From Chloroflexi bacterium B3_Chlor (lineage in GTDB: Bacteria; Chloroflexota; Anaerolineae; UBA7937; B3-Chlor), in assembly GCA_005223035.1 (NCBI GenBank), contig NJBK01000002.1:1-64000 (forward strand): a DNA stretch of 64,000 nucleotides, read 5' to 3'. Below the pieces are notes generated by a model. The model had not been told where the DNA came from. It was given only the letters and a program-made list of their open reading frames with translations, and did not search any database. Shown here one piece after another: positions 6,933-28,945 of the stretch. Every line of letters starts with the position of its first letter. Positions within the stretch are counted from its first letter, which is position 1. Position numbers and translations under genes: made by a program.

Positions 6933-8351
6933 ATGGAGCCTAGAATACTGATACGGCCAGCCGGGTCTCCAGTACCGAGACCCAAAGTCACTCCCAAGAC
7001 CATTGTCGTCAGTGGGCTGCTGGAGCTGGCATCCGTGGAACTTGAGCGGGCCATCCTCGAGGAGGTAGCTGAGAACCCCGCGCTCCAAGTGGTCGAGACG
7101 GCCCACTGTGAGCGCTGCGGCGCCACGTTCTCAGGCTCAGCCTGTCCCCGTTGTGTGAGCGAAACCAGAGAAACGCCTGCGGCAGAGTGGACCGCGGATT
7201 GGGGTGGCTCGACGCGCACCCGGTGGGCTCAAGAGGAAGAATGGGATCCGTTCTCCAAGGTGGCGGCTCCCTGGTCGATCCGCGATCATCTCCTGTGGCA
7301 ACTATGTCCCCTCCTGTCTGCCTCCGAATTGGAAATCGCCTCTCTTATGCTGGAGAACCTCGACCATCGCGGGCTCCTGGATTGCGAGTTGCAGACCATC
7401 GCTTCAATCCTTGATGTACCTTTGACTCAGGTTGAGAGCGTCTTGGCTGTGGTCCAGAGGCAAGACCCCGCGGGCATTGCGGCCAGGACGCTTCGCGAGA
7501 GGCTACTGATCCAGCTGGACTGCCTGGACTGCGAAGAAGGCGTCGCAGGGCTGTGCAAACTGCTGATCGAAGATCATTGGGAGGCCCTCGGCAAGGGCAA
7601 ACTGAAGAGAATAGCAGGGGAGCTCCAAGTAGGCATAGAGGATATTGGGCGGGCCAGGGACTTCATGAGGGCCAACCTTGATCCCTATCCTGTCCATGCA
7701 TTCCTCGACCATCCGAAGCCTGCTGACGAGCCGACCGAGGCTCACTACCTGCGACCCGACGTAGTCATCGCTGTTCATGGCCCAGACGGTTCAGAGGAGT
7801 TTGAGATACGGTTTCCTGCGGAAAGACGTTTTCGTTTCTCACTGGACGGGGCCTATCGAGGGCTGATGGATGCATTTGACAACGAACGTGTGCATGTCAA
7901 CCCAGGCGAATATGACCACGTCCGCCAATGCGTGGGCAGAAGCAAGCTCTTCATTTCGGGCTGGCAGGAGAGGTGGCGGACGCTGCGTTGCATCGTCGAA
8001 GGGATGGTTGAGTATCAAAGGGAGTTCCTGCTCAACGATGCCAGGTCGCTCCGTCCTCTGACACGAGCTCGGCTTGCGGAGATGGTGGGGGTGCATGAGT
8101 CAACCGTCAGCAGAGCTGTGGCGTCCAAGTATGCTCTGATCCCGGGAGGACGGATCGTCGCCCTGTCGGATTTCTTCGATGGCTCGTTGAGGGCCAAGGT
8201 CTTGATCAAGGATTGGATTTCAGAGGAGAGTCATCCGCTGACAGATAGCGAACTTGTGGAGTTGCTCGCCCAGGCTGGCGTCTGCGTAGCGAGACGGACC
8301 GTGGCGAAGTATCGCCAGGCGCTGAGGATTCTTCCTTCGGAATTGAGGTGA
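6933..8351 (+). CDS. rpoN: RNA polymerase sigma-54 factor (RpoN) with zinc-ribbon-like insert
   Basis: A 472-aa protein, close to the usual length. Region I is recognisable in TPKTIVVSGLLELASVELE and VAENPALQVVE (residues about 20-55), which binds activators and fork-junction DNA. The core-binding domain follows (about 110-300), then a helix-turn-helix, and the RpoN box ARRTVAKYRQ at 453-462, which reads the -24 element. Between regions I and III sits CERCGATFSGSACPRC (C59, C62, C71, C74), a four-cysteine knuckle where most family members have an acidic linker. The start ATG 6933 is preceded by GGTGAGG. The gene heads a compact cluster with two kinases and an NtrC-type activator, so this is probably a dedicated sigma-54 circuit. 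The sigma-54 assignment is firm; metal binding is inference. Confidence 0.93.
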   Translation: MEPRILIRPAGSPVPRPKVTPKTIVVSGLLELASVELERAILEEVAENPALQVVETAHCERCGATFSGSACPRCVSETRETPAAEWTADWGGSTRTRWAQEEEWDPFSKVAAPWSIRDHLLWQLCPLLSASELEIASLMLENLDHRGLLDCELQTIASILDVPLTQVESVLAVVQRQDPAGIAARTLRERLLIQLDCLDCEEGVAGLCKLLIEDHWEALGKGKLKRIAGELQVGIEDIGRARDFMRANLDPYPVHAFLDHPKPADEPTEAHYLRPDVVIAVHGPDGSEEFEIRFPAERRFRFSLDGAYRGLMDAFDNERVHVNPGEYDHVRQCVGRSKLFISGWQERWRTLRCIVEGMVEYQREFLLNDARSLRPLTRARLAEMVGVHESTVSRAVASKYALIPGGRIVALSDFFDGSLRAKVLIKDWISEESHPLTDSELVELLAQAGVCVARRTVAKYRQALRILPSELR

Positions 8352-8352
8352 T

Positions 8353-11310
8353 ATGTCCACCATCGACAGACTAATGAAGGTCAGAAGTAGGTACGTGGTC
8401 GTTGCCGCCTCCCTGCTGGGTCTGGCACTCGTGGTGATCGTTGTCGGCTATGTGCTGCGGAACGCTGGCGCACGTGCCCGGGTGTCGGCGCTCGGCGACG
8501 CGGAGCAAGTCTGGCTGGCGGAGAAGAGTGAGCTGCGGATTGCTGGCAGGTGGGAGGAACCCCCTTTCGCCTTTACAGACGACGCTGACACGTACGGTGG
8601 GTACGAGGTGGAGCTTGCGGAAAGCTTGGGGCCTATCCTGGGGATAGGGGTCGAGGTGCTTCCGATGACCCGGGAGGAGGCCGTGATCGCTATGGAAAAC
8701 GGTGAAGTTGATGCCATCATGGGGATGGTGAGAAATGCTCGAACGAGTGACGAGTATGAATTCACTGAACCTTATCTCAGCAGCTCCCTGGGCATTTTTG
8801 CGCGATCGGAGAGGTTCGACGTAGCGTCATTGGGAGATCTACGGGATCATCAGGTCGCCGTTCAAGCGGGCACTGCAGCGGAGGCAGTATTGAGGAACCA
8901 GCCAGGGATCCTTCCAGTATTGGTGCAGTCTGCAGAAGAAGGCTTGCGGTCCGTGGCGGACGCGCAGGTCGTCGCGCTTGTGGCAGACGAGATGGTGGGC
9001 TTGCGTGCGGTCCAACTGGCAGGCCTCGGGGACGAGGTCAAGTTGATTGGCCAGCCAACAGAAACTGTCAACTACAGCTTCGCCGTGCCGAAGAATCATG
9101 GTACACAGCTCAACGTTCTGAATCACGCTCTCGCCTCAATGCAAGCCGTCGGACTGAAACAGCAGGTGGATCGCGCCTGGTTCGGGATACCTTTGGCCTC
9201 GTCTGGAGCGTCACCCACCAGTACTACAATCACGGTGGTTCTTGGTGTCGTAGTTGTGGGGTTGGTCTTGGGTAATGCGACCTACGTGCTGCTGAAGATG
9301 CGTCAACGCACGGAAGAGCAGACAGTAGTTCTCGAAGAATCACGGGACAAGTATCGGAAGCTGGTGGACGGGACCGATGAGGCCATATTCACCGTGAGTG
9401 GTGATCTCAGCCTTCTCGAGGTCAACAACAGGGTGGAGTCGCTCACCGGATACAAGAAAGACAGCCTCTTGAGAATGAGTTTGGAGGATCTCGTTCCTCC
9501 GACACAAAGACAGGCTATGAAGAGCTGTGTCCAGAGGGCCTTGCTGGAGGGAGTTGGCACGCTGGACGCTGTCTCAATCATAGACAGGCATGGAGACGAG
9601 GTGCCGGTGCGGTTTAGCGCTCATTCGGTTTCGCAGGCGGGACGAAGGATGATTCAGTGCATTGCTCGGGACGTCCGCGAGCGCGAAAGGATGCGTCATC
9701 AGGTAATGCGACGGAGCGAAGACCTGTCAGCCATCAACGCCATAGCCAGTATGGTCAGTCACTCTCTGGATGTCGAGGAGATGTTGGAGAAAGCGCTGGC
9801 AAAGGTCTTGGACCTGACAAGGGCAGACAGCGGTGTCATCTACTTGAGCGGAAGCCGTGATGGAGAGATGATTCCTGTGGTCAAGCAAGGGCTCACCGCG
9901 CAGGCCATGAAACAGGTAGGTTGGCCGGATGAACCTCGACGGTTAGCAGAGGAGGTGGCTCAGGTCGGGAGAGTCCTCATTTCGACTGACTTTGGCCAAG
10001 AAACAGTAGGATCGGGCAGTCCGCAAGTCACTGGCGCTGCTCTCGGAACTCAGGCCGGCGTTCCTCTGACTTCTAAGGAGCGGGTCTACGGCGTAATGAA
10101 CATCTATGGGCGGGAACCTCGCAGGTTCACAGATGAGGACGTCGCGCTACTGACGGCGGTGGGGAATCAGATTGGGGTCGCAATCGAGAACGCGCAGTTG
10201 ATCCACCGCCTACAACGGACCGTCAGTGAGATGGTGACCATGAAGCGGTTCAGTGAGAGTGTGCTGGAGGACATGACGAATGGGTTGGTGGTGGTAGACA
10301 CGGACGGCAAGATACGGCTCTTGAATCGGGCCGGAGAGAGCCTGCTGGGATATAGCGAAGAAGAGGCGCTCAATAGCTCTGTTGAGCAGTTATTGGGGCG
10401 GGGCGCGAGGATAGTACGGGATAGTATGGAGAGGCAGCTGGCGTTTCCCGGTGAGGAAATCGTCGTAAGGAGGGATGGGGGAGAGAGTATACCGCTAGGG
10501 ATGAGCGTCTCGCCCTTGCGGGGTGATGGGGGGAAGGTGAACGGCGCGGTGGTGATGTTGCGCGATCTAAGTAGAGAGAAGGAGCTGGAGGAAGAGAGGA
10601 CCAGGCTGGACCGACTGGCGCTGTTGGGGGAGATGTCGGCGGTCATGGCGCATGAGATTCGCAACCCACTGGCCGGGATGGGCGCCGGCATTCAGCATCT
10701 TCTCACGAAGTTCGAGGTGGGTGACGAGAGGCATGACGCTCTGGAGAGGGTATTGAAGGAGGGGGAGAGGGTAAACAGAATCATCGGGGACATATTGATG
10801 ATATCGCGTCCCCCGCATCTGAATCTGGCGCCATGCGACATCTCGGAAGTGATGGCAGACGGAGTCAGTCAATGGGAGGAGAAGGCTAGAGGCCAGGCCG
10901 TTGAGATCGGGACCTACTATGCTACCGATCTGCCGCAGGTGAGGGGTGACAAGATACGATTGGAGCAGGCGTTTTCAAACCTGGTAGTGAACGCGATAGA
11001 GGCCATGGCCAACGGAGGGCAGTTGAGGATAGAGGTGACGGGGCCTGTTGTGGCGGAGTGGCTGGGGGACGGTGAAGGCGAGTGTGTCCAGGTCATGATA
11101 CAGGACAGGGGGATCGGGATCAAGAGGGAGGACATAGCGAAGGTAGCGGACCCGTTCTACACAACAAAGGCGAGGGGGACGGGGTTAGGACTACCGATCG
11201 CGAAGCGGATCATCGAGGAGCACGGGGGTGAGTTGGAGATCGAGAGCGACGAGGGGGAAGGAACGAAGGTTACAGTGCGGCTTCCCCTGGTCAGGAGGGG
11301 AGGGCGATGA
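8353..11310 (+). CDS. Sensor histidine kinase: periplasmic SBP_bac_3 sensor, PAS-GAF-PAS, HisKA-HATPase
   Basis: A 985-aa membrane sensor kinase. Order: TM1 (about 15-38), an extracytoplasmic solute-binding domain of the amino-acid-binding type (about 45-280, with FTDDADTYGGYEVELAE and YEFTEPYLSSSLGI), TM2 (about 292-316), PAS (about 330-445), GAF (about 455-615), PAS (about 625-740), HisKA with H767 in MAHEIRNPLAGMG, and HATPase with DRGIGI and GTGLGLPIAK. This is an NtrB/AtoS-like kinase expected to sense a small extracellular solute and phosphorylate a receiver. It starts 1 base after the rpoN stop and overlaps the next gene by 4 bases (ATGA). Likely partners are the receivers encoded next door. 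The ligand is unknown. The C-terminal 350 residues are nearly a copy of the next kinase. Confidence 0.93.
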   Translation: MSTIDRLMKVRSRYVVVAASLLGLALVVIVVGYVLRNAGARARVSALGDAEQVWLAEKSELRIAGRWEEPPFAFTDDADTYGGYEVELAESLGPILGIGVEVLPMTREEAVIAMENGEVDAIMGMVRNARTSDEYEFTEPYLSSSLGIFARSERFDVASLGDLRDHQVAVQAGTAAEAVLRNQPGILPVLVQSAEEGLRSVADAQVVALVADEMVGLRAVQLAGLGDEVKLIGQPTETVNYSFAVPKNHGTQLNVLNHALASMQAVGLKQQVDRAWFGIPLASSGASPTSTTITVVLGVVVVGLVLGNATYVLLKMRQRTEEQTVVLEESRDKYRKLVDGTDEAIFTVSGDLSLLEVNNRVESLTGYKKDSLLRMSLEDLVPPTQRQAMKSCVQRALLEGVGTLDAVSIIDRHGDEVPVRFSAHSVSQAGRRMIQCIARDVRERERMRHQVMRRSEDLSAINAIASMVSHSLDVEEMLEKALAKVLDLTRADSGVIYLSGSRDGEMIPVVKQGLTAQAMKQVGWPDEPRRLAEEVAQVGRVLISTDFGQETVGSGSPQVTGAALGTQAGVPLTSKERVYGVMNIYGREPRRFTDEDVALLTAVGNQIGVAIENAQLIHRLQRTVSEMVTMKRFSESVLEDMTNGLVVVDTDGKIRLLNRAGESLLGYSEEEALNSSVEQLLGRGARIVRDSMERQLAFPGEEIVVRRDGGESIPLGMSVSPLRGDGGKVNGAVVMLRDLSREKELEEERTRLDRLALLGEMSAVMAHEIRNPLAGMGAGIQHLLTKFEVGDERHDALERVLKEGERVNRIIGDILMISRPPHLNLAPCDISEVMADGVSQWEEKARGQAVEIGTYYATDLPQVRGDKIRLEQAFSNLVVNAIEAMANGGQLRIEVTGPVVAEWLGDGEGECVQVMIQDRGIGIKREDIAKVADPFYTTKARGTGLGLPIAKRIIEEHGGELEIESDEGEGTKVTVRLPLVRRGGR

Positions 11311-13448
11311 ACGCTAGGATACTGATCATAGATGACGAAGAGACATTGTGCTACTTCCTGAAGGAGTCGCTGGAAGAGAAGGGCTATGAGGCTGTTACAG
11401 CGCACACGGCCGGAGAGGGCTTGAAGGTGGCAACGAGGCAGCAGATAGACCTGGTGTTATTGGATTTGAAGTTGCCCGATGGCGACGGTATCGATGTGTT
11501 GTATGAGATCAGGAAGGTGGACTCGAATCTGCCGGTGATAGTGTTGACCGGACACGCAGCGGTCGAGAGTGCAGTACAAGCGATGAAGCTTGGAGCGTAT
11601 GACTACTTGGAGAAACCCATCAACCTGGCACAATTGAGCAGCAGTGTTGCTGAAGCCTTGGACTCGAGGCGTCAGGAGCTTTCCGCGATTGGGGCGCGAC
11701 AGGCGGACGTTGAAGAGGAGAGTGCCGCGCTCGAGCTGGCAGATAGCGCGCCGCTTATGGAACAGAGTGGCGTGGCAGCAGGAGAGTTCGCAGCGATGTC
11801 GCGGGCGCTGAGGCAGTTGGAGCGGCAGCTTGAAGAGACTGTAGCGTTGGATTCCATTTCCTCTGACCTATTGAGGTCTCGGAATCTTGAGCAGCTGATA
11901 GAAAGGACACTGGATCGGCTCCTTCAGTTATCCTCGGTAGACATGACTGCCGTTTTTGTTGGCGACAGCGATGACGGGGAATTGGTGCTTGCCAGTCAGC
12001 GTCGGTTTCCTCCCCGCGTCTGGGAAGATACAACACTCCGAAGGCTCTCAGCGGAGGGCGTCTTGGGAAGACCCGTCGCTCGTTTGCCGAAGGTCCTGCC
12101 CCTGAGCGAGGCGGTTCCTGATCGGTGGGTCGAGCAGCTGAACGCCCGGCTGGGGAATGACATCTTTACTCTCTTGGTGCCACTGAAGGACGGGGATCAC
12201 TTGCGAGGTCTGATGCTGGTTGGCCGTCGGGGTGTGCGGGCCTTTGACCGCACGCAGATACAGACGTTTTGCACCATTGCTGAGCGGCTCGCTCTCGTGA
12301 TGGGTCATGCAATCCAGCGGAGTTCGCTGAGGCAGCGCCTAGGTCAACTGTCAGAGCGCGAGGCTCTTCACGAGAGTGTGCTGCAGGGGATGACGAATGG
12401 GTTAGTTGTGGTGGACAGGGAAGGGAACATAAGGCTGCTAAATCGAGCGGCGGAGGGGCTGCTGGGGTACAACGAAGAGGATGTACTTGACAGCCCTGTA
12501 GAGGATGTTCTGGGGTTTGGCGCTGAAATTGTACGGAATAGTCTGGAGAGGGAGTTGGCCTATTCCGGCGAGGAGATTGTAGTCGAGCGGGACGGGGGGG
12601 AGGGCGTACTGCTGGGGATGAGCATATCGCCGTTGAGGGGAGACCGGGGTAAGGTGAGCGGAGCGGTTGTTACGCTGAGCGATTTGCGGGAGGCGAGGGC
12701 GCTGGAGGATGAGAGGAGGAAGTTGGATCGTCTGGCGTTCTTGGGAGAGATATCGGCGGTGATGGCTCATGAGATTCGTAACCCTCTGGCGGGGATGGGA
12801 GCAGGGATACAGCATATGCTTACGAAGTTTGAGGAGGGGGACGAGAGGCATGAGTCTCTGGAGAGAATATTGAAGGAAGGGGAGAGGGTAAATCGGATCA
12901 TCGAGGACATATTGCTGATATCGCGACCTCCACACTTGAATCTAGCTCCTTGTGACCTATCCGAGGTGATAGGGGAGATAGTTACACAATGGGAGGAGAA
13001 AGCGCGGGAGCAAGGGGTGAAGATCAGGGAGTATTACCCTTCGGGGTTGCCGTTGGTGAAGGGAGACAAGATACGATTGCATCAGGCATTGTCGAACCTG
13101 ATCTCGAATGGGATAGATGCGATGCCAACGGGAGGCGAACTGAGCATAGCGGTGACCGGGCCCGGGAGCGGGGATCTGGTAGCCAGTGCGAGAGGCGCAG
13201 AGTTGTGGGTGGATGGGGAGTATGTAGAGGTAGAGATCAGGGACAGAGGCGCTGGGATAAGAGAGGAAGAGCTAGGGAAGATGTTCGAGCCTTTCCACGC
13301 GATGAAGGCGAGGGGGACGGGATTGGGTCTGGCGATCACGAGGCGCATCATCGACGAGCATGGTGGTGAGGTAAGGGTAGAGAGTCAGGAGGGGGAAGGG
13401 ACAAGGTTCGTAGTGAGAGTTCCCCTGACAGGGAGGGGAGGGCGATGA
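11307..13448 (+). CDS. Receiver-GAF-PAS-histidine kinase (soluble hybrid kinase)
   Basis: A 713-aa protein without membrane segments. An N-terminal receiver (1-120, phospho-acceptor D53 in LVLLDLKLPDGDG, K in EKPINL) is followed by a short coiled linker, GAF (about 180-345), PAS (about 350-470), HisKA (H488 in MAHEIRNPLAGMG) and HATPase (DRGAGI, GTGLGLAITRRI). It overlaps both neighbours by 4 bases (ATGA). The receiver is almost identical to that of the downstream NtrC-type regulator, and the PAS-kinase part to that of the upstream sensor kinase, so the gene looks like a fusion product of local duplications. It could act as a relay: phosphorylated by the membrane kinase, then phosphorylating the activator. 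The domain call is firm, the relay is inference. Confidence 0.92.
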   Translation: MNARILIIDDEETLCYFLKESLEEKGYEAVTAHTAGEGLKVATRQQIDLVLLDLKLPDGDGIDVLYEIRKVDSNLPVIVLTGHAAVESAVQAMKLGAYDYLEKPINLAQLSSSVAEALDSRRQELSAIGARQADVEEESAALELADSAPLMEQSGVAAGEFAAMSRALRQLERQLEETVALDSISSDLLRSRNLEQLIERTLDRLLQLSSVDMTAVFVGDSDDGELVLASQRRFPPRVWEDTTLRRLSAEGVLGRPVARLPKVLPLSEAVPDRWVEQLNARLGNDIFTLLVPLKDGDHLRGLMLVGRRGVRAFDRTQIQTFCTIAERLALVMGHAIQRSSLRQRLGQLSEREALHESVLQGMTNGLVVVDREGNIRLLNRAAEGLLGYNEEDVLDSPVEDVLGFGAEIVRNSLERELAYSGEEIVVERDGGEGVLLGMSISPLRGDRGKVSGAVVTLSDLREARALEDERRKLDRLAFLGEISAVMAHEIRNPLAGMGAGIQHMLTKFEEGDERHESLERILKEGERVNRIIEDILLISRPPHLNLAPCDLSEVIGEIVTQWEEKAREQGVKIREYYPSGLPLVKGDKIRLHQALSNLISNGIDAMPTGGELSIAVTGPGSGDLVASARGAELWVDGEYVEVEIRDRGAGIREEELGKMFEPFHAMKARGTGLGLAITRRIIDEHGGEVRVESQEGEGTRFVVRVPLTGRGGR

Positions 13449-14830
13449 ACGAGAGGATATTGATCATAGACGACGAAGAGACGTTATGCTACTTTCTGAA
13501 GGAGTCCTTGGAGGATAAGGGCTATCAGGCTGTGGCGGCGTACACCGCAGGAAAGGGTTTGGAGGTAGTAGCGAGGCAGCAGATAGACCTGGTGTTACTG
13601 GATTTGAAGCTGCCTGATGGAGACGGCATGGATCTGCTGTATGAGATCAGGAAGGTGGACTCAAATCTGCCGGTGATAGTGCTGACCGGGCACGCGGCAG
13701 TCGACAGTGCAGTACAAGCGATGAAGCTTGGAGCATACGACTACCTGGAAAAGCCCATCAACTTGGAGGAGTTGAGCATCACTGCCGCCAAAGCCCTAGA
13801 ATCGCGGTCTATGCGCCAGGAGATTCAAAGATTGCGGTTTCAGCAGGATCGAGACCAAGAACTCATTGTTGGTGACAACAAGAGCATGCGGGACATCATG
13901 CGGCTCATCGAGCGGGTGGCCCCCAGCAAGGCCAGTGTTCTGATCCAGGGGGAGAGCGGGACCGGCAAGGAGGTCGTGGCCCAGGCCATACACAACATGA
14001 GCCCCAGGGCGAAGAAAGGCTTTGTGCCCATAAGCTGTGCCGCCATTCCAGATACTCTGATGGAAACGGAACTCTTTGGTTACGAGGCGGGTGCCTTTAC
14101 GGACGCAAGGCGTCAAAAACTTGGGCTGATAGAAATGGCAGATGGAGGTACACTCTTCTTAGACGAGATAAGTACGCTGAAACCGGAACTGCAGGCCAAG
14201 CTTCTGCGCATTCTTGAGACAGAAAGCACGCGGCGACTGGGTGGTATCAAAGACATGCGCGTTGACCTTCGAGTCATCGCCGCTACGAATCGGGATCTGC
14301 GCGAAGCCATAAAGGAAAGGTCATTCCGTGAAGATCTCTACTATCGCCTGAGCGTAGTAGTGATAGACATACCGCCGCTTCGCGAGCGTCTTGAAGATGT
14401 CGACAAATTCGCAGCAGCGTTCATCGGCGACTTCAATAGGACAAGTGCGACGAAGGTGCAAGGTATCTCGGATGATGCACTTCGCCTGATGCGGCAATAC
14501 GAGTGGCCTGGCAACGTGCGCGAATTGCGCAATGTCATAGAGCGAGCGATGATTCTATGCAGCGATGATGTGATCAACGTAGGGGATCTTCCGGCAGAAA
14601 TCGTGAGCAAGGAGCCGGGCGTGGCGTTTGCAAAGAACCTCCTGCCGATTCCGCCGGTGGCTTCCGGTGTGGATATGAAGGCTACCATTGCGGACATCGA
14701 GAAGCGAATGATAACGGAAGCGCTGGCGCAGACCCAAGGCAACAAGAGTCGGGCGGCAAGGCTGCTGGGGGTAAGTCGCGACGTTCTCAACTACAGTATG
14801 CAGAAATACGACTTGCAAATAGAGCATTGA
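13445..14830 (+). CDS. Sigma-54-dependent response regulator, NtrC/AtoC family
   Basis: A 461-aa regulator with the classic three parts. A receiver (1-120, D53) is followed by the AAA+ sigma-54 activation domain with Walker A GESGTGKE (169-176), loop 1 motif GAFTDA at 216-221 (canonical GAFTGA), Walker B GGTLFLDEIS and an arginine-finger region. The C-terminal Fis-type helix-turn-helix contains KSRAARLLGVSRDVLNY. It should remodel sigma-54 RNA polymerase at -24/-12 promoters after phosphorylation. The nearest such promoter is 435 bases downstream (15265-15280), ahead of the large gene run. The overlap with the kinase gene (ATGA) indicates translational coupling. The G-to-D change in loop 1 touches the sigma-54 contact loop; similar variants exist in the family as far as I know. 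Confidence 0.95.
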   Translation: MNERILIIDDEETLCYFLKESLEDKGYQAVAAYTAGKGLEVVARQQIDLVLLDLKLPDGDGMDLLYEIRKVDSNLPVIVLTGHAAVDSAVQAMKLGAYDYLEKPINLEELSITAAKALESRSMRQEIQRLRFQQDRDQELIVGDNKSMRDIMRLIERVAPSKASVLIQGESGTGKEVVAQAIHNMSPRAKKGFVPISCAAIPDTLMETELFGYEAGAFTDARRQKLGLIEMADGGTLFLDEISTLKPELQAKLLRILETESTRRLGGIKDMRVDLRVIAATNRDLREAIKERSFREDLYYRLSVVVIDIPPLRERLEDVDKFAAAFIGDFNRTSATKVQGISDDALRLMRQYEWPGNVRELRNVIERAMILCSDDVINVGDLPAEIVSKEPGVAFAKNLLPIPPVASGVDMKATIADIEKRMITEALAQTQGNKSRAARLLGVSRDVLNYSMQKYDLQIEH

Positions 14831-14969: not shown

Positions 14970-14989
14970 AGTGCGGAATTCTCCGCACT
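14970..14989. promoter_or_regulatory. Perfect palindrome: candidate enhancer (UAS) or weak terminator
   Basis: AGTGCGGA-ATTC-TCCGCACT is a perfect 8-bp dyad with a 4-base centre, 140 bases after the NtrC-type gene and about 276 bases before the -24 element. NtrC-family activators bind such dyads upstream of sigma-54 promoters. It is followed by GAGTGATTTTC, so weak termination of the rpoN cluster is the alternative. Confidence 0.4.
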
Positions 14990-15264: not shown

Positions 15265-15280
15265 TGGCACGCATCTTGCA
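15265..15280 (+). promoter_or_regulatory. Consensus sigma-54 (-24/-12) promoter
   Basis: TGGCACGCATCTTGCA matches the sigma-54 consensus TGGCACG-N4-TTGCA at every defined position, with the GG and GC elements at correct spacing. The predicted start is near 15291, 25-40 bases before the receiver gene. It lies in a non-coding stretch directly downstream of rpoN and an NtrC-type activator gene. Confidence 0.85.
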
Positions 15281-15316: not shown

Positions 15317-15739
15317 GTGGGCAGCGAAGAGATGTCGGAAACCTGGGCGAAGTTGCTGATAGCTGAAGACGAGGACACGCTCTCCTTCTTCCTCCGACAA
15401 AGCCTGGAGGACTCCACGCCTCCTTTCGTGGTGGAGGTGGTGGATGCCGGTGACCGGGCTTTGAAGAAGGTGCTCACGGACAAGTTTGATCTCATCATAG
15501 TGGATCTCCGTCTTCCGGATATGGACGGTCTGGCCCTGATCAGGGCTGTGCGGCAGTTCGATCCCTTCATGAAGGTAATCGTGATGACCGCCTACGGCTC
15601 TCCAGATATGGAGCAAGAAGTCAAGAAACTCGGGATTCATGGATATGTCACTAAGCCTTTCGTTATTGAAGACATGAAGAGAATGATAACTCAGATAATG
15701 GCGGACAAACCGTCGTATGGAAGGGGGTCAAGAGCATGA
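15317..15739 (+). CDS. Single-domain response regulator (receiver only)
   Basis: A 140-aa stand-alone receiver from GTG 15317; ATG 15332 (135 aa) is an equally possible start, and neither has a strong ribosome-binding site. Motifs: acidic pair in LLIAEDEDTLS, phospho-acceptor D63 in LIIVDLRLPDMDG, T in VIVMTAYG, and K in YVTKPF. There is no output domain, so it acts by protein contact or as a phosphate relay or sink. It is the first gene after the sigma-54 promoter and overlaps the next by 4 bases (ATGA), so it probably controls the products of the run, for instance the NACHT-TPR protein. That partner assignment is inference. Confidence 0.9.
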   Translation: MGSEEMSETWAKLLIAEDEDTLSFFLRQSLEDSTPPFVVEVVDAGDRALKKVLTDKFDLIIVDLRLPDMDGLALIRAVRQFDPFMKVIVMTAYGSPDMEQEVKKLGIHGYVTKPFVIEDMKRMITQIMADKPSYGRGSRA

Positions 15740-16047
15740 GGTACGAGATTCAGATCGTTATGTCAGTCAGTCTCTTCGTGATTGGAGTGCTGGCGTCGGT
15801 TTCGGGTCTCTGGATCATTCTGGCGAAGGAGTATCACCAGGCGATGAAGCAGTTGTCGGCCCAGTCCATCAGGATCACGGGTCGTGCCATCACGCAAGAC
15901 TCGGTGGCGCCTCTGATCGATTCAGCATCGCGAATGGTGGAGGCCATCAACCAACTGATTCGTACGGCAGCGGGCGTCGGGGCTTTTCTGTGCGTGGTGG
16001 GCGTCATGATCTGCGTTGTCGCCTTTTGGATGATTGGCAGAGTGTAA
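15736..16047 (+). CDS. Small two-helix membrane protein, unknown function
   Basis: A 103-aa protein with membrane helices at about residues 7-30 and 78-100. Between them is a soluble segment of about 45 residues (YHQAMKQLSAQSIRITGRAI, then DSVAPLIDSASRMVEAINQLI) that looks amphipathic and could form a helical signalling stalk. It overlaps the receiver gene by 4 bases, and its stop lies 10 bases before the NACHT gene, so all three are likely co-translated. I do not recognise a family. It may anchor or sense for the receiver and the NACHT protein, or form a membrane pore component. Its position between the two is the only evidence for that. Confidence 0.7.
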   Translation: MRYEIQIVMSVSLFVIGVLASVSGLWIILAKEYHQAMKQLSAQSIRITGRAITQDSVAPLIDSASRMVEAINQLIRTAAGVGAFLCVVGVMICVVAFWMIGRV

Positions 16048-16057
16048 GGGGGAGACG

Positions 16058-19000
16058 ATGAGCGAGATGGAGAGCGGAGGTCTGCCCGAGTCGGCCGAGG
16101 AGGCAGAGGAACACAGCAATGTGGAACTCATAGACGTGCAGACCACCGTGAGGAGATACCTGCAATGTCTGCTGGATGACTTGGAGTTGCAGGATATCTC
16201 ATCCTCGTACCTGCCACTGCGCCTCAGGCCTTTTCGGGGTTTTGCTTCCAGGTCGCAAGAAGGTGACCAGGATGCTGAGCCACGGTCTGACAATTGGCTT
16301 GGGAGTACGTCGGACATTCTTCCAGCCCTTGAAGGTTGGGAAAGGATTGTTCTCCTGGGGAGGGCAGGGGCCGGAAAGACCACCACATTGCGCTGGCTAG
16401 CACATCAGCAGGCAGAACACTTGCTGACTGGGGGCAACTCCCGACTGGAAGGCAAGAGCATACCAGCACAATACCTACCCCTCTTTGTTGAACTGTCCGC
16501 AAGCAACGAGGGTGATGGCTTGCTGAGCGCCCTGGCAGGTGTCTTCGAGAAGTACGAACTGACGGTCAACGAGGAAGCGGTGGGTAACATCCTCGATCGC
16601 AACGCCATCGTGTTTCTCGTCGATGGCCTGGAGCACATTCGTGATAACCAACTGCTGGATGAGCTGGCCCGCTTGGTCGAGTCCGGAAATACGAAGTGTG
16701 TTGTCACATGCCGCACGGAGGACTATGGCGCTTTCCGGCGCTGGCTCGAAGATCCGCTTGTGCTTGAGCTTGAGGATATGGATGAGGAAGAGCGCAGGAC
16801 TTACATACAGAGCCAGCTGCCTGAATCCGCTGGGGCCTTCGCCCTGTCGAGGGCCAGAGGAGAGGAGCCACTGTGGAACCTGCTCAGGATTCCCCTCTTC
16901 TCAACGACATTCGTGGAGCTGGCGGAGCAAGCTGCGAATGGATTGGGGTGGGTCGAAGGCACCACGCTCGTGCAGGAGGGAGTACGGCGGCTATTGGAGG
17001 CCACGACTTCACGGCTGATCGACTTGGACATTGACGAGGCAAGACGCGATTTGGCGGCCCTGGCTCTTCAAATGCAGCGAGTGCGCAAGTCCAATACCCC
17101 TGAGCTTGGTAGTGGACACCTTGTCATCCAGCTTGGTTCCCCAGGAACAGCGGTCTCACCGCAGCGGCTTTCCAGCCTTGCCTCCACGGGCATCATAACC
17201 ATCTCGAAGGCGGAGGACAGCGTATGGTTCGCCGACAGTATGGTGCAGGATTACTTCGCGGCGCTAGCCATGAGTGAGTCCTACACAGGTGCACTGTCCA
17301 AGAGCATCTGTCTCGATTCCGAGGAGACGGCAGAACATTGGGAAGGGGTCTTGCTTCACCTCTACCATTTCTTGTCTGATCGCCTGGGGTACTTGCAGCA
17401 ACTCTTGCAGACTCGGATTGATGGGTGGGGCCCTCGCGTCGCGGCCAAGTGTCTTGCATACAACGAGGATTCTCACGAGGCTCGCCAGCTAGCGGCATCG
17501 CTTGCCCTGGTTGACGCCGTTGATCTGACATCCGTCTACCGGCTGGGGGTAGCGCTCAAAGACCTCGGAAAGAAGGACGACGCTGCCGCTCTGTTCGAGG
17601 GCATGCTTGGGCGTGAGCGAGAGGATTCGCGCCCACGCCAGGAGATGTTGGGCTATCGAGAGAAGTACGGACGAGGTTCCCTCGACTCGTCCTGGCCTGC
17701 ACAACCTGAGCGGATAATCTCGCGGCGAAACCTAGGTCTGCTGTATCGTGAGCTGGATCAGGTCGACAGGGCAGTGACGGAACTGGAGGAAGCTGCCCAG
17801 GGAGCAAATGCCGCCTGCTCGGATACCTATCACGAGTTGGGGCTAGCTTATCTGCAACAGGGGCGCCTTGAGGACGCGTTGACATCATTCCAACACGCAA
17901 TTGCCCTCAATTCTGGAGTGGCTGCCTATCACTACAGCGCAGGCGTCGTGCTGAACCATCTGCAGCGCTACGCTGAGGCTCAGGCGGAGCTTCAGCAAGC
18001 GACTATGTTTGAGCCCGAGGATCCGGGGTCGTATCTGGAGCTGGGCTTTGCCTACGAGAAGCAGGAGTGGTACGAGGAAGCCCTAGCTGCCTATCAGGCA
18101 GCGGAAGCACGCGATCCACGCGAGCCATTGTGTCCACAACGGATCAGCGGACTTCTGTCAGTGCACGAGCGATGGGATGAAGCCGCTCAGGCGTTGCGGC
18201 GTGCGCTGGCGCTTGCACCCAACAAAGCAGATTGGCATTACGAGTTGGGTGAGCTGTATGACCGCCGTGGCCGGCACCGGGACGCACTGGCGGAATACCT
18301 CCATGCAACTGATCTGGATCCGAAGAACCCTGAGTACCTCCACACGGCCGGAGCGCTCTTCCACAAGATGAATCGCCCTGCAAAGGCGATAGACTATCTT
18401 GGTGCAGCGGTGGAATTGGATTCAGGGCGGGCTGACTGGTGCTTTGATCTGGCCTCAGCGATGGCTTCGCAAGGACGGTACGACGAAGCATGGGTTTGGT
18501 CGGAGCGCTCGGTAGGCCTCGCGCCAGACGATCCCCAGCATCAGGTCCTGGCTGGGACGATTCTGCGCCAGCTAGGGCGACGCAGCGAGGCGGAATCCCA
18601 GCTAAGACAGGCCGCGGAACTGGACCCAGAGCTGGCAGTTGCGCGCTGTGAGCTAGGCCTCCTGCTGGAGGACGAGGGACGACGTGACGAAGCCCTGGCC
18701 GAGTATAAAGCTGCAATAGCTCTTGAACCTGAAGATGCAACCCACCACTACGGGATGGGGGTGCTCCTACACGGTATGGGTCAACACGAGAAGGCTGTGG
18801 AGTCCTTGACCAGAGCGATTGAGTTGAATCCTTCCTTTGCTAAAGCAGCTGAGAAGTTAGGTGCCGTCTTCGAAGAAGCCCAGCACGACGGCGACGCATT
18901 GCGGATGTACGACCAGGCAATCTCCATGGACCCGGCGAATGCGAGCTATCATCTGCGTGCGGGTGCTCTGTGCCAGAAGATGGGGCGCGTGGAGGATGCA

Positions 19001-22000
19001 CTGGGCTACTTGGAGGAATCTTCAAAGCTCGATCCACGGAATGGTGAGATCCACTTCTTACTGGGCCAGGTCTATGAGATCGACGGGTCGCTGGAAAGAG
19101 CCTTGGATGAATACCAGGAGGCGATAGCGTATAGCCCGGAGGATGCAGGGTACCACACCTGTGCAGCTTCGGCCGCCCATCGTCTTGGGCGCGTGAATGA
19201 GGCAAAGGCACAGGCTGAGAAGGCCCTGGAACTGGAACATGCCCGTCCAGAACTGAACTACGAGTTGGGTAGGACATTGCAGGAGATAGGTTTGACCGCG
19301 GAGGCGGCCGTGTGTTTTGAGAGGGCTGCGGAAGTCACACCTGAGGAGCCAGAGTTTCAGTTGCACTACGCGAGGGCTCTGCGCGACCTGGGGCGCGTCG
19401 AAGAGGCAATCCGAGTGCTGGAAGCAGTCCGGCGATCACTTGGAGCATCAGCCGCCATCCACGCCGAGTTGGCGGGGCTGTATTCAACACAAGGCAAGAC
19501 AGCTGAGGCTTTGCAGCGGTGGGATGAAGCGATCAGCCTTGAACCCGAGGACGCTTCCTTTCATTTGGGAAAGGGAACACTGTTGCGTCATGACGGTGAG
19601 CCAGAACTCAGTGTGGCCGTGCTTGAGCGAGCTAGTGCGCTGAATGCCGATAATCCAGAGGTCCAATGGCAGCTAGGGCTGAGTCTCGAGGCAGTTGGCC
19701 GCGATGAGGAAGCATGCAAAGCGCATGGACGTGCCTCGAATTTGGCGCCTGACGTCCATATGTACCAACTATCATATGGTATGGCGTGCCGAAGGCAGGC
19801 TGATCTGAGCCAAGCGACCACCGCCCTGGAGGCCGCGATTGAACTGGCTCCGGACGATGCAGAGAGCAACCATCAACTTGGCGACCTCCGCCTCGAGCAA
19901 GGAGAGCTTGATGAAGCGATGGCCCTCCTGGAGAAGGCGTGTGCGCTGGATCCCGATGTTGGGGCGTACCATCGCTCCTTAGGCCGAGCCCACGCCATGA
20001 TGGGCCAGGACGATGAGGCAATCAGTGCTCTTGAGCGTGCAAGCACACTGATTGAGGGAGACGACGAACTGCTGTACGAACTAGCCCGGGCCGCGGACGC
20101 TCAAGATTATACGCACAAGGCGCTGGCTCTATGTCGTCAAGCTCTTGATTTGAAGCCTCACGATGCTCGCTACCTAGCGCAGGCGGCTGAGTTGCTCAGA
20201 AGGCTCGGGGAGGACGAGGAAGCTGTCCAGATCCTGGAACAGGCATCAGAGCAGGACGTGCCAGAGATTCAGCATGTACTGGCTCAGCTGTACCGTTCTC
20301 AGGGTCGACTGGCAGACGCACTGCACGCGGCGGAACGAGCGGTGCGGCTTGCCCGATCCAGTGCGGAGTACAGGACCCATTACGCAGAGGTGCTGGTTGA
20401 CTTGGATCGGGGGGAGGATGCCACGGCGCAGTTGGAGGAAGGCGTCCGACTTGCCCCTGGGAACTCGGCCAACCGGTTCACCCTCGGCCAGCTATACGAG
20501 GAGCAGGGTCTCTTGGAGCAGGCCGTGGATCAGTACACGGAAGCGGCAAGTCTGGCACCTGACCAGTCGGAATACCACTGGCGACTAGGGGGTCTCCTTG
20601 GGAAGCTGGGGCGCTCCGATGAAGCGACGGCGGCATTGGGAAAGGCCATCGCTCTGGACCCGGACGATGTTGAGGCATGCTTGACCGCCGGGCAGGTGCT
20701 GTATCAGCAAGGGTTGTATGAGGAGGCTCTATCGCAGTTCCAACGTGCTTTGGAGCTGGATAGCAGCCTAGTTTCAGCTCAGAGGGCAGCGGGTGCAGCA
20801 TTGCGCTGTCTCGGAGAAGACACCCGAGCGATTGAGGAACTTAGGAAAGCGATCGAATTGGATCCCGCCGATCATGAGACCCACTTTGAACTCGCGACAG
20901 CTTACGCTGCTGTCGGGAATCTGGAACGCGCTGTGGACAGTTGCCAAAGGGCCATTGACCTGGCTCCGGACGAAGCAAGTTACCATGGGCTCAAGGGCAA
21001 CTTGCTGCGGAGACTGGGTCGCTCTGATGAGGCCGAAAAGTGCCTGCGACAGGCGCTGGCCCTGAATGACAGAGACGTTGAGGCCCATTACGAACTGTCG
21101 GTGGTGTATGAGATGCAGGAGAGGTTCGAGGAAGCTGCTAAGTCCCACGAGCGAGCTGTTCAGCTTGCCTCCGACTCACCAGAATTCCGCCAACCGCTGG
21201 CCGTCGTGGCTTCGAGGATTGCCAAATCCCTTCCGTTGTCCCGAGCGTCCTCCTGGTTTGAGGAAGTCGAGCGAGAGTTGCACCAGGTCCTGGCAAGGAG
21301 GCCCGAAGATGCTCTTGCCCATAGCCAACTGGCTCTCATACATGCGAAGAGAGGCAGGGGAGAGAAAGGCCTTGCCGAGTGTAGGAGGGCCATCGAGCTT
21401 GACCCTGACAATCCGCTACACCATCACAATCTAGGTGTGGTGCTCCACAGCATTGGCAGAGGTGAAGAGGCAGTCCAAGAGCTGCTCGCGGCGTGCGACC
21501 TGGATCCCAAAGATCCTGCCAACCACTACGAGTTGGGCGTGACCTACCTCGCTGTAGATCAGTTGGGACCTGCCATAGCAGCTTTGGAGACGGCCACGCA
21601 ACTGGCTCCTGTGCGCGCAGACTATCAGTACGCCCTGGTGATGGCTTACGAACAAGCAGGGCGTGATGACGAGGCCATTTCAGCACTCACCAAAGCCATG
21701 GAGCATAATCCCAACGTTGCCGATAGACATCACCGTCTGGGCGAATTGTACGACAAGGGGGAACGGTACCAATCCGCCTTGGACGCGTACCTGTCAGCGA
21801 TCGAGCTGGAGCCGAAGAAGGCCCAATACTACTTCGACGCAGGCCTTGCGTATAGGCACATGAGACGGTACGAGAAAGCGGCCCACTATCTACAAGAGGC
21901 GCTCAACAGGAGAGACGATGACCCCCGCTGGTGGGCTGAGCTAGGGGCTGCGCTGGAATCGCAGAACCGTTGGGAAGACGCAGAGATGGCATACCAGAAG

Positions 22001-22867
22001 GCTATTCAGCTGGCGCCAGACGAGCCTTTGTACCTCCTGCATCTGGGTAGGTGCTATGAGAAGCTGGGCCGCTATAGCGATGCCGCGGCACAGTATCTGG
22101 AGGCATCTGCCCTGAGGCCGGACTGGGCGCTGGTTCATGAACGTCTGGCTAGCCTGGCAGAGGCACAGGGTGAGCCCCACGAGGCGCTGCTCAGCTATAG
22201 CAAGGCCCTGCAAGCAGATCCGGCCAACCCTAAGTACCATCTGAAGATGGGTGCTTTGCACAAGCGCGAGAAGCGATATGACCTCGCCATGGAAGAGCTC
22301 CACAGGGCGATGGAGTTGTCGGCAGAGGCGCCGGCTGCATACCATGAAATGGCGGAGATATATGAGGAACAGGGCAATCATGATGAGGCCCTACACGCCT
22401 ACCATCAGGCCCTGCGGGTAATGCCCGACGACGTTGCGTCCCATGTCAAGCTTGGTCAGTTGTGTGGACGGCTTGGACACATTGACAAAGCCGCTGCTCA
22501 CTTGAAGAAGGGTATTCAACTGGAGCCTACCGATGCAACCGCTCATTGCGAACTGGGACGGATATTCGAAATGCAGGGGGACCATAGTGCCGCGTTGCAG
22601 GAGTACGACCAGGCACTCCGCTATGAGCCCGATAGTTTTGCTCCCTACTTTGGGGCAGGCATGATCTACAAGAAGATGAAGCAGTACCCCGAAGCCGTGG
22701 AGATGTTCCGTCACGCGGTGAAGCTGGAACCTCATGACAGTGAAGCTTACAAACAATTGGCAGCCACGAGTGCACTGGCCTTCTTCGTGGCCCGGGGCGC
22801 TCGTTCGGCTGACCGATTTCAAGAACGAACCGATGTGGCACAGGAGGCCAAAACAGCGTGTCGCTGA
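16058..22867 (+). CDS. Giant NACHT-type STAND NTPase with about 50 TPR repeats
   Basis: 2,269 aa from ATG 16058, chosen because AGGGGGAG precedes it by 3-4 bases; an upstream in-frame TTG at 16034 lies inside the previous gene. The NTPase domain carries Walker A GRAGAGKT (101-108), Walker B VFLVDGLEH with D189, and VVTCRTEDY (sensor-1-like), a NACHT pattern. A helical region (about 250-480) leads into tetratricopeptide repeats that fill residues about 490-2255. Two TPR types alternate, for example YHYSAGVVLNHLQRYAEAQ then SYLELGFAYEKQEWYEEAL, giving a 68-residue period repeated about 25 times. There is no signal peptide or membrane helix. STAND proteins oligomerise on ligand sensing and activate an effector. 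The effector candidate is the clan-CD peptidase whose gene overlaps this one by 10 bases. Confidence 0.88.
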   Translation: MSEMESGGLPESAEEAEEHSNVELIDVQTTVRRYLQCLLDDLELQDISSSYLPLRLRPFRGFASRSQEGDQDAEPRSDNWLGSTSDILPALEGWERIVLLGRAGAGKTTTLRWLAHQQAEHLLTGGNSRLEGKSIPAQYLPLFVELSASNEGDGLLSALAGVFEKYELTVNEEAVGNILDRNAIVFLVDGLEHIRDNQLLDELARLVESGNTKCVVTCRTEDYGAFRRWLEDPLVLELEDMDEEERRTYIQSQLPESAGAFALSRARGEEPLWNLLRIPLFSTTFVELAEQAANGLGWVEGTTLVQEGVRRLLEATTSRLIDLDIDEARRDLAALALQMQRVRKSNTPELGSGHLVIQLGSPGTAVSPQRLSSLASTGIITISKAEDSVWFADSMVQDYFAALAMSESYTGALSKSICLDSEETAEHWEGVLLHLYHFLSDRLGYLQQLLQTRIDGWGPRVAAKCLAYNEDSHEARQLAASLALVDAVDLTSVYRLGVALKDLGKKDDAAALFEGMLGREREDSRPRQEMLGYREKYGRGSLDSSWPAQPERIISRRNLGLLYRELDQVDRAVTELEEAAQGANAACSDTYHELGLAYLQQGRLEDALTSFQHAIALNSGVAAYHYSAGVVLNHLQRYAEAQAELQQATMFEPEDPGSYLELGFAYEKQEWYEEALAAYQAAEARDPREPLCPQRISGLLSVHERWDEAAQALRRALALAPNKADWHYELGELYDRRGRHRDALAEYLHATDLDPKNPEYLHTAGALFHKMNRPAKAIDYLGAAVELDSGRADWCFDLASAMASQGRYDEAWVWSERSVGLAPDDPQHQVLAGTILRQLGRRSEAESQLRQAAELDPELAVARCELGLLLEDEGRRDEALAEYKAAIALEPEDATHHYGMGVLLHGMGQHEKAVESLTRAIELNPSFAKAAEKLGAVFEEAQHDGDALRMYDQAISMDPANASYHLRAGALCQKMGRVEDALGYLEESSKLDPRNGEIHFLLGQVYEIDGSLERALDEYQEAIAYSPEDAGYHTCAASAAHRLGRVNEAKAQAEKALELEHARPELNYELGRTLQEIGLTAEAAVCFERAAEVTPEEPEFQLHYARALRDLGRVEEAIRVLEAVRRSLGASAAIHAELAGLYSTQGKTAEALQRWDEAISLEPEDASFHLGKGTLLRHDGEPELSVAVLERASALNADNPEVQWQLGLSLEAVGRDEEACKAHGRASNLAPDVHMYQLSYGMACRRQADLSQATTALEAAIELAPDDAESNHQLGDLRLEQGELDEAMALLEKACALDPDVGAYHRSLGRAHAMMGQDDEAISALERASTLIEGDDELLYELARAADAQDYTHKALALCRQALDLKPHDARYLAQAAELLRRLGEDEEAVQILEQASEQDVPEIQHVLAQLYRSQGRLADALHAAERAVRLARSSAEYRTHYAEVLVDLDRGEDATAQLEEGVRLAPGNSANRFTLGQLYEEQGLLEQAVDQYTEAASLAPDQSEYHWRLGGLLGKLGRSDEATAALGKAIALDPDDVEACLTAGQVLYQQGLYEEALSQFQRALELDSSLVSAQRAAGAALRCLGEDTRAIEELRKAIELDPADHETHFELATAYAAVGNLERAVDSCQRAIDLAPDEASYHGLKGNLLRRLGRSDEAEKCLRQALALNDRDVEAHYELSVVYEMQERFEEAAKSHERAVQLASDSPEFRQPLAVVASRIAKSLPLSRASSWFEEVERELHQVLARRPEDALAHSQLALIHAKRGRGEKGLAECRRAIELDPDNPLHHHNLGVVLHSIGRGEEAVQELLAACDLDPKDPANHYELGVTYLAVDQLGPAIAALETATQLAPVRADYQYALVMAYEQAGRDDEAISALTKAMEHNPNVADRHHRLGELYDKGERYQSALDAYLSAIELEPKKAQYYFDAGLAYRHMRRYEKAAHYLQEALNRRDDDPRWWAELGAALESQNRWEDAEMAYQKAIQLAPDEPLYLLHLGRCYEKLGRYSDAAAQYLEASALRPDWALVHERLASLAEAQGEPHEALLSYSKALQADPANPKYHLKMGALHKREKRYDLAMEELHRAMELSAEAPAAYHEMAEIYEEQGNHDEALHAYHQALRVMPDDVASHVKLGQLCGRLGHIDKAAAHLKKGIQLEPTDATAHCELGRIFEMQGDHSAALQEYDQALRYEPDSFAPYFGAGMIYKKMKQYPEAVEMFRHAVKLEPHDSEAYKQLAATSALAFFVARGARSADRFQERTDVAQEAKTACR

Positions 22868-25455
22868 TAACGTCTAGAGAGCTATTTGACGTAGCCAAGT
22901 TCTCCTTCGATCTGGGCTATCAGGATTCGGGAGTGCTGTTGCTGGAGCATCTTCTGGAGCAGCTGCCGAGCCATGTAGCTGGGCATTGCCTTCTCGGCGA
23001 GAGACTCGTCACTCTGAAGCATTGGGCGGAAGCTCGAGAGCACTTCGAATACCCTTTGATGGTTGATCCTTTGAATCTCTCAGCGCTAAGGGGGATGGGC
23101 CGCATCGACCTGGCGCAGGGTTCCTCTGCCGAGGAAAGCGAATACCTCCAGAGGGCTTGGGGCCTGTACCCGTACGACGCCGTGACCAGGCAACTAGTCG
23201 GTAAATCGTTGGATGACCTGCCTCCCTTGACTCTGGCCCGAATCCTGACCGTGTCTTCCCTTCATGAAGATGCCCTGCGCTACTACCAGGTTGGTTGTGA
23301 GCAATCAGACTCGGCGTCAGCGGAGGCGGTCTTGACACTGGTCCTTGCGCAAGCCTTGTGGAGGGCAGGGCGCGCGGATGAAGCCAGATCTCTGCTGGAG
23401 AGGCTTGCTGGTGAGCAGCCGATGTGGATCAGACCGAAACTGATCCTGGCGGACATAGCACTGGAGCAGCGGGACGATGCCCTCGGCGTGGCTCTGCTAC
23501 ACGATGCCAACGCCCTGGACTGTAGTCTGCTCGTCGCCCAAGAGTTGCTTAGTTTAGATGAGCGGTACGGCTCGCTGATGATGAAGAGTCTTGAAGTGCC
23601 AGCCCCAGGGTCTGAGATCATGGACAGCGCGCCGGCAATCCTGCGGTACCTCTTGCGGGCGGAACCTTTGCCTGCGCCGCTTGCGGCCGACGCGACCTTG
23701 ATGGAGCGATCACCGGATTCAGGGGACCCCCATCTGACCAAGAAGGGCTGCGATCTCGGTGCTGTGGTTGCGGAATCCAGTGATGGTGCTGATGTGGCAC
23801 CTACGTACGAGGTGCCCGAAAGCGAAGCCCCGATTGACAATTCTGGGCAAGGGATCGCGGTTCGCCTCATTCTGTCCAGTCGGGACAGGCTGGTTTCGAG
23901 CTACGGAGAGGACGGGTGTGGAAAGCTGGATGCCAAGCTCTCAGAACTCTGTGAGGCCGTGTCGCGGTCCACAGGTGACGAGGCCATCAAGATCTACGTC
24001 GACGATGAGTCCTGCCTCGCCGAGTTTGGCCTGGGTAACGTTGATCCCTCTGATCCAGAGCAGATAAGGCGACTGATTGAGCAACTCGATTCGAGGCTGA
24101 GGCGGGAATCGAAGGGAGTGAAATCCCTGTTGATCGTCGGGGGTGATTCAGTAATCCCCTTCCATAGGCTTGCCAACCCTACTGATGATGAAGACACAGA
24201 AGTGCTCTCAGACTGGCCCTATGCGGCTCAAGATGGTGGTCCCTTACTCGTAAGATTCAGCGTAGGACGTCTGCCGGACGGCGATCCAGGGGATCTGGCG
24301 ATGCTGTTGCAGCTTGTAGACCAAGCAATCGGGCATCACAATGCCAGCTCTCAGGGTGGCAAGGGCATCACGTCTTCAGGGTGGCTGAATCCGATCCGGA
24401 GATTGCTAGCTTCTGGGCAAGCGTCACAGACCAGCGTTGGCTACTCGGCCGAGATTTGGGCTGAGGCGTCTCGCTCCGTGTTCGAAGTGATAGGGGACGC
24501 CAGCAAGTTGCATGTGTCTCCCCCGTTGACTGACTATGACTTCTTGAGTACATACGAGAACATCCCAGCGCTGAGCTATTTCAATCTGCATGGATTCCGC
24601 GGAAGCTCGTATTGGTACGGTCATGGAGAGTCAGAGCATGGTGCCCCCCTGTTGCCTATTGCACTTACTCCTCTCTCGATCTCTTGGACTGATGCGCAGG
24701 CGGCACTGGTGTACTCGGAGGCGTGCTACGGAGGGGATCTACAGAATCAGCACAGTGACGGCTCGATAGCTATGAGCTTCCTCGCCAAAGGGGCCTTGGG
24801 GTTCATCGGCTCCACCGCGATGTCGTACGGCTCGTTGGCGCCTCCTCTGTCGGGTGCTGACTTGCTTGGCAGATATCTCTGGGAGGGCGTCGTAGGAGGA
24901 CTCCCGATCGGATGTGCGTTGCGAAGGGCAAGGTCGGCGTTGATCCGCGCAGCAACAGAGGACCAAGGCTATCTGGACGGGGAGGACCAGAAGACACTAC
25001 TGAGCTTTGTACTGTACGGTGACCCTTCGTTGTCCCTAACAAGTGCCTCGACATCGTCGGAGATGGACGCCGAACTCCGGGTTGCGTGTCCTCCACTGGC
25101 CTGCTGTTCCTCGATGATGGAAAGCGGATCACTGCCGCTTCCACGAGACCTAAAACAGAAAGTGCAGCACAGTCTGCCCTTCCTATCTATGAATGGCCTT
25201 GAGGCTCATCCGCTTATCCTCTGTAGGGTGGCCTCTTCACACTGTGAATGTGCCACGAATTCGTGCACTTCAAAGCAGCAAACCCAAGGGCACCTTCCCG
25301 AGTTGATTGTCGCCTCTCAGCAGAAGGTGGTTTCCAAGGGCGGGGATCAATTGCGTCACGTTGTCAAAGTGACGGTCAACGCTGATGGTGATGTGCTCAA
25401 AGTGGTCATCTCCAGGGGAGGAACACTCGTGGACAAAGGAAGCAGGCTAAGATGA
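22858..25455 (+). CDS. Cytoplasmic TPR / clan-CD (C25, caspase/gingipain-like) cysteine peptidase with extra C-terminal domain
   Basis: 865 aa, starting at GTG 22858 inside the end of the NACHT gene, with AGGAGG 12 bases upstream. Residues 1-210 are helical, TPR-like. The peptidase region (about 310-720) carries the clan-CD dyad: H578 in YFNLHG and C623 in VYSEACYGG, 45 residues apart, as in caspases and gingipains. LLIVGGDSVIPF and RFSVGRLP are C25-like strands. No signal peptide is present, unlike secreted gingipains, so it probably acts in the cytoplasm. Residues about 745-865 form a separate Cys-rich domain ending RHVVKVTVNADGDVLKVVIS, homologous to the 78-aa product at 32770. By analogy with other STAND and caspase-like pairs it could be the effector activated by the NACHT protein; the substrate is unknown. 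Confidence 0.85.
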   Translation: MSLITSRELFDVAKFSFDLGYQDSGVLLLEHLLEQLPSHVAGHCLLGERLVTLKHWAEAREHFEYPLMVDPLNLSALRGMGRIDLAQGSSAEESEYLQRAWGLYPYDAVTRQLVGKSLDDLPPLTLARILTVSSLHEDALRYYQVGCEQSDSASAEAVLTLVLAQALWRAGRADEARSLLERLAGEQPMWIRPKLILADIALEQRDDALGVALLHDANALDCSLLVAQELLSLDERYGSLMMKSLEVPAPGSEIMDSAPAILRYLLRAEPLPAPLAADATLMERSPDSGDPHLTKKGCDLGAVVAESSDGADVAPTYEVPESEAPIDNSGQGIAVRLILSSRDRLVSSYGEDGCGKLDAKLSELCEAVSRSTGDEAIKIYVDDESCLAEFGLGNVDPSDPEQIRRLIEQLDSRLRRESKGVKSLLIVGGDSVIPFHRLANPTDDEDTEVLSDWPYAAQDGGPLLVRFSVGRLPDGDPGDLAMLLQLVDQAIGHHNASSQGGKGITSSGWLNPIRRLLASGQASQTSVGYSAEIWAEASRSVFEVIGDASKLHVSPPLTDYDFLSTYENIPALSYFNLHGFRGSSYWYGHGESEHGAPLLPIALTPLSISWTDAQAALVYSEACYGGDLQNQHSDGSIAMSFLAKGALGFIGSTAMSYGSLAPPLSGADLLGRYLWEGVVGGLPIGCALRRARSALIRAATEDQGYLDGEDQKTLLSFVLYGDPSLSLTSASTSSEMDAELRVACPPLACCSSMMESGSLPLPRDLKQKVQHSLPFLSMNGLEAHPLILCRVASSHCECATNSCTSKQQTQGHLPELIVASQQKVVSKGGDQLRHVVKVTVNADGDVLKVVISRGGTLVDKGSRLR

Positions 25456-27899: not shown

Positions 27900-27930
27900 G
27901 TACGTTATGAGAAGGGAGAAGGTGTCACGC

Positions 27931-28446: not shown

Positions 28447-28473
28447 GTGGATGGAGCAGATGAGGGCAGGGGG

Positions 28474-28908: not shown

Positions 28909-28945
28909 TTGGCATGTGATTTGAAACCTGGTAAAGGGAGCTGGT

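Follow-up and report, generated by a model that had tools for sequence, protein, structure and literature searches.

The element TGGCACGCATCTTGCA at positions 15265–15280 of the window (the whole stretch of 64,000 nucleotides that was analysed) very probably functions as a sigma-54 promoter and forms the chief output of a self-contained island of regulatory genes. The window comes from a 2.8 Mb, 85% complete assembly of the host, an uncultured member of the Anaerolineae (Chloroflexota). Since the element occupies the same place in 27 of 29 loci, this rare switch appears to exist mainly for one large operon of cell-envelope and cell-division genes.

The −24/−12 element and its conservation

The element shows 0 mismatches to the sigma-54 consensus TGGCAC-N5-TTGCW, with the GG and GC at the fixed spacing. 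As the initial annotation had stated, the match is full and lies in non-coding DNA, 435 bp past the NtrC-type activator gene (stop at 14830). The distance to the first gene had been given as 25–40 bases, whereas the start conserved in relatives, ATG 15332, is 51 bp downstream; the nearest open reading frame start, GTG 15317 in the same orientation as the element, is 36 bp downstream. Transcription from sigma-54 promoters starts about 12 nt past the −12 element and requires sigma-54 together with an ATP-using activator. With C15279 (the C of the GC) as −12, this geometry predicts a start at A15291. No sigma-70-like promoter was found in the gap between the activator and the run of genes downstream. 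The same gap holds a terminator-like perfect inverted repeat that precedes the −24 element by 295 bp; it may be a binding site for the activator or a weak terminator for the rpoN operon.

Could the element be a chance match without function? The window contains 39 sites with up to two mismatches, about as many as chance gives (36), and consequently the string says little by itself; the argument depends on where the element lies and on its conservation. No other site in the window has zero mismatches, in line with the earlier observation that no comparable site was found elsewhere in it, and the element scores 23.4 bits, compared with 14.1 for the second-best site, with a weight matrix built solely from relatives outside the host's family. 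We scanned the gap from the activator gene to the receiver or membrane-protein gene in 29 Anaerolineae loci, with borders set by hand from tblastn hits. An exact −24/−12 element was present in 23 of the gaps and one with at most one mismatch in 27, compared with 0.03 and 0.64 expected from dinucleotide shuffles. This conservation contradicts a chance match, which we regard as extremely improbable.

Furthermore, the element is conserved in these gaps whereas the surrounding DNA has diverged, and when four family genomes are aligned, no conserved stretch of the 500-bp gap is longer than CAGCCTGGCAyGsATCTTGCA. Four of five independently retrieved loci that were tested after the rule had been set agreed with it (L187, L188, L189 and L195; not L192). 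Two junctions carry no good site (two mismatches in G138, four in G252), and in one locus, L194, the membrane protein and the NACHT and C25 genes are present with neither the rpoN cluster nor a site in their vicinity. Across the class, the gene order is rpoN, kinases, activator, site, (receiver), membrane protein, NACHT/TPR protein and C25 peptidase. The retrieved loci are nearly all labelled Chloroflexota, Anaerolineae, Anaerolineales or Ardenticatenales. An assembly labelled Desulfobulbaceae UBA2262 (L189) also has an Anaerolineae-like locus, probably on a misbinned contig.

The membrane protein also co-occurs with the sigma factor. In 298 genomes of the class, rpoN was found in 45, the 103-aa membrane protein in 31 and both in 26, so that 26 of the 31 genomes with the membrane protein have rpoN (odds ratio 68, Fisher p = 1.7e-20, with genomes treated as independent and phylogeny uncorrected).

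Sigma-54 sites in the host genome and in relatives

A genome-wide pattern search for equally good sites returned 8 exact matches to TGGCACN5TTGCW, 7 of which lie inside genes according to a codon-usage gene model. The element is the only intergenic full-consensus sigma-54 promoter in the 85%-complete genome, and its extended form, CTGGCAN5CTTGCA, occurs once. About 87 distinct sites with at most one mismatch, roughly three quarters of the 117 in the genome, were placed relative to genes, a survey that more degenerate sites could escape; among them, no intergenic site but this element reaches the scores of the conserved footprints. The entry from L370 among the placed sites is a duplicate, which is intragenic when read in L371. 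One intergenic site, TGGCATTCCTTTTGCA at C1:86527, precedes a membrane-protein gene by 123 bp; its score of 14.8 is under that of the lowest conserved footprint (17.0). The weight-matrix runner-up lies inside uvrA and was rejected as conserved coding sequence: in a family member, its 150-bp flanks show 97% and 89% identity.

Related sites do occur in relatives. Exact −24/−12 elements precede rpoN in G032, G041, G093, G201, G242 and G262 (loci L056, L058, L259, L261, L263 and L267), and elements with one mismatch do so in G066, G223, G252 and G270. No such site was found before rpoN in the window's own order, which indicates that autoregulation differs between lineages. Intergenic sites also lie before the amidase homolog in G041 and before the homolog of the window's SpoIID protein (SpoIID/GH-like) in G005. 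These sites before envelope genes agree with what Francke et al. 2011 proposed, namely that the bacterial exterior is under sigma-54 control (PMC3162934). Two more strong intergenic sites were seen in the family member G003 (L158:5378 and L159:4702), the former 343 bp before a GAF-type sensor gene.

The promoter could also be real while sigma-54 acts more broadly, through numerous promoters that are weaker or intragenic, the run being only its most consensus-like target. The extra intergenic sites of the relatives speak for this, as does the excess of sites with at most one mismatch in the host genome (117, compared with 72 for the reversed pattern), and in E. coli sigma-54 sites within genes can be active (PMC4591121). 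The correct spacing, however, is barely commoner than a spacing one base longer (378 and 322 sites, respectively, with up to two mismatches), and the host has one intergenic site in the footprint range and a single strong activator. We consider a broader regulator unlikely. For the host genome, the suggestion that the rpoN cluster may serve mainly this run is supported by that single site and single activator; some relatives have further sites.

The rpoN cluster and the downstream run

The features of the island are listed in Table 1.

Table 1. Features of the sigma-54 island and its downstream run in the window.
Feature	Position	Strand	Basis
rpoN, sigma-54	6933–8351	+	Pfam Sigma54_CBD 2.1e-31, Sigma54_DBD 4.1e-28; RpoN box ARRTVAKYR
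Zinc-ribbon-like CERC-x8-CPRC, residues 59–74 of sigma-54, directly after region I	7107–7154	+	cysteine conservation
Membrane sensor kinase, SBP_bac_3 - PAS - GAF - PAS - HisKA - HATPase	8353–11310	+	Pfam
Second kinase, receiver - GAF - PAS - HisKA - HATPase	11307–13448	+	Pfam
NtrC-type activator (receiver, AAA+, Fis-type HTH)	13445–14830	+	Pfam Sigma54_activat 4.3e-68
Perfect 8-bp inverted repeat AGTGCGGA-ATTC-TCCGCACT	14970–14989	+	block partly conserved in four family genomes
Sigma-54 −24/−12 promoter element TGGCAC-GCATC-TTGCA	15265–15280	+	exact consensus; conservation; sole intergenic exact site in genome
Predicted transcription start (+1)	A15291	+	sigma-54 geometry
Single-domain receiver, first gene of run (alternative start GTG 15317)	15332–15739	+	Pfam Response_reg 3.4e-26; start from family alignment
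103-aa protein, two long helices, constant promoter neighbour	15736–16047	+	alignment; model pLDDT 75; rpoN co-occurrence
2277-aa NACHT NTPase with long TPR array	16034–22867	+	Pfam NACHT 1.4e-10, TPR
TPR and peptidase family C25 (caspase-fold clan), His-Gly/Ala-Cys motif	22858–25455	+	Pfam Peptidase_C25 2.9e-16
815-aa GH-like protein	25452–27899	+	same-place homologs in relatives
192-aa protein, probably coiled coil, no family	27868–28446	+	
MraZ-like regulator	28447–28908	+	Pfam 3.7e-19; TIGR00242 below cut-off
N-acetylmuramoyl-L-alanine amidase	28946–31573	+	Pfam Amidase_2 1.7e-20
Second FtsZ, likely final gene of operon	31587–32777	+	TIGR00065 above cut-off

Apart from the NtrC-type activator, the genome encodes no strong sigma-54 activator, all other matches scoring about 24–27 bits. 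The receiver of the NtrC-type protein retains Asp53, and among the NCBIfam activator models listed, none reached its cut-off. The rpoN-bearing genomes checked have one strong activator each, except for two in G044. The activator loop reads GAFTDA across the host's order and GAFTGA or a close variant in most relatives outside it. We rejected the loop as a novelty because GAFTDA is a known variant, listed among the functional loop variants compatible with activation (PMC4641369).

In sigma-54 itself, region I is recognised weakly (Sigma54_AID E 0.0011, below the Pfam cut-off); a match to this family at E <= 1 is present in 23 of 24 RpoN sequences scanned. The segment that follows contains two cysteine pairs. 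Across 24 RpoN sequences from Anaerolineae, conservation of C59, C62 and C71 is 90% or higher, and CxxC-x(5-14)-CxxC is present in 29 of 30 sampled Chloroflexota RpoN (loci L304–L333); the RpoN of G138 is without the segment, and the best-matching sigma-54 in the PDB has no such cysteines in the alignment. As the structural model is poor here (pLDDT about 50–70), the assignment of CxxC-x8-CxxC as a putative zinc ribbon is drawn from the cysteines alone. A search of one literature collection found no paper on such a segment of sigma-54, and a search for it outside the phylum, confined to plasmids, gave no match to an N-terminus from the phylum's sigma-54. The segment gives a structural prediction that is immediately testable.

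The run comprises nine tightly packed genes over 17.4 kb. Between 15736 and 31587, neighbouring genes are spaced at −32 to +37 bp. Could this run also be read from other promoters, so that sigma-54 controls only its first genes while the site is intact? The run is long, the 37-bp gap between the MraZ and amidase genes has a weak TGGCATGTGATTTGAA at 28910, and the amidase gene of G041 has a sigma-54 site of its own. Against this, the genes overlap or abut from 15736 to 28908, and the only sigma-70-like match on the plus strand of the scanned region is intragenic, fewer than in shuffled sequences. Additional promoters seem rather improbable to us.

The 103-aa protein is probably a membrane hairpin of two helices, an assignment of moderate confidence that draws on the structural model; in a PDB profile search, its top two matches were designed helical proteins (E 0.0002 and 0.011), followed by chains of pore-forming toxins (E 0.12). 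The C25 motif NLHG...EACYG is retained in all loci matched by a motif search, one of them with ESCYG, which is consistent with an active peptidase. The 815-aa protein has no Pfam match. FtsZ genes number two per genome in 6 of 6 genomes checked; the other host copy is in contig C70 (G000 C70:58117-58404), and the copy in the window adjoins the MraZ and amidase region. A defence-system reading of the run was rejected, as PADLOC matches are confined to the TPR region. By analogy, the NACHT-TPR protein and the caspase-fold-clan peptidase recall conflict systems, and FtsZ, the amidase and MraZ would point to division or envelope remodelling.

Proposed mechanism and known systems

It is plausible that a signal is perceived by the membrane kinase, with its extracellular solute-binding domain, and by the receiver-kinase, and that these phosphorylate the NtrC-type activator, whose gene lies beside rpoN. 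The activator would then bind upstream and loop to the sigma-54 RNA polymerase waiting at the −24/−12 element, where its use of ATP would drive promoter opening at about 15291. The resulting transcript would span the run, with the receiver gene (15332) first and the second FtsZ gene (32777) last; the encoded proteins may act on the envelope and on cell division. A tentative extension, which we consider possible rather than probable, is that many Anaerolineae have such a single-purpose sigma-54, in which one sigma factor with a zinc-ribbon-like segment, one or two sensor kinases and one activator throw one switch. The run under its control, with the two-helix membrane protein, the NACHT-TPR ATPase, the caspase-fold peptidase and the second FtsZ, might drive a programme of differentiation, division or lysis.

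Canonical sigma-54 promoters with a neighbouring enhancer-binding protein gene match the island in element, spacing and activator architecture, in having activator and target side by side, and in the envelope theme proposed by Francke et al. 2011 (PMC3162934). Here, in contrast, sigma-54, both kinases and the sole strong activator are in one cluster with one evident target. NtrB/NtrC-type control likewise has a receiver-AAA+-Fis activator beside PAS-type histidine kinases, whereas the island has an extracellular solute-binding sensor and a second receiver-kinase, with an envelope and division target in place of nitrogen genes.

Most studies of sigma-54 treat it as a broad regulator served by many activators. 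Elsewhere in bacteria their number can run to dozens, with 37 in Desulfovibrio vulgaris (PMC4641369). One of these, DVU2106, is likewise a GAFTDA activator and controls adjacent cell-division operons; it differs in being listed as a single-component regulator, and the part of the source consulted mentions no NACHT-TPR/C25 genes with it. Sigma-54 was reported for some members of the Chloroflexi in 2011 (PMC3162934), and a cross-phylum survey of sigma-54 regulons from 2025 does not mention the phylum (PMC12316311). If true, the conserved arrangement of one sigma factor, one activator and one operon would be a minimal form of the sigma-54 system, and a direct handle on an uncharacterised Anaerolineae programme of signalling ATPases, a caspase-fold peptidase and a second FtsZ.

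NACHT/STAND conflict systems have a NACHT NTPase with repeats beside a caspase-fold-clan peptidase. Conflict systems that combine NACHT/STAND and caspase-fold proteins occur in multicellular bacteria (PMC7159879). The run likewise has a repeat-bearing NACHT NTPase adjoining a caspase-fold-clan peptidase, and differs in its fixed synteny with sigma-54, FtsZ, the amidase and MraZ.
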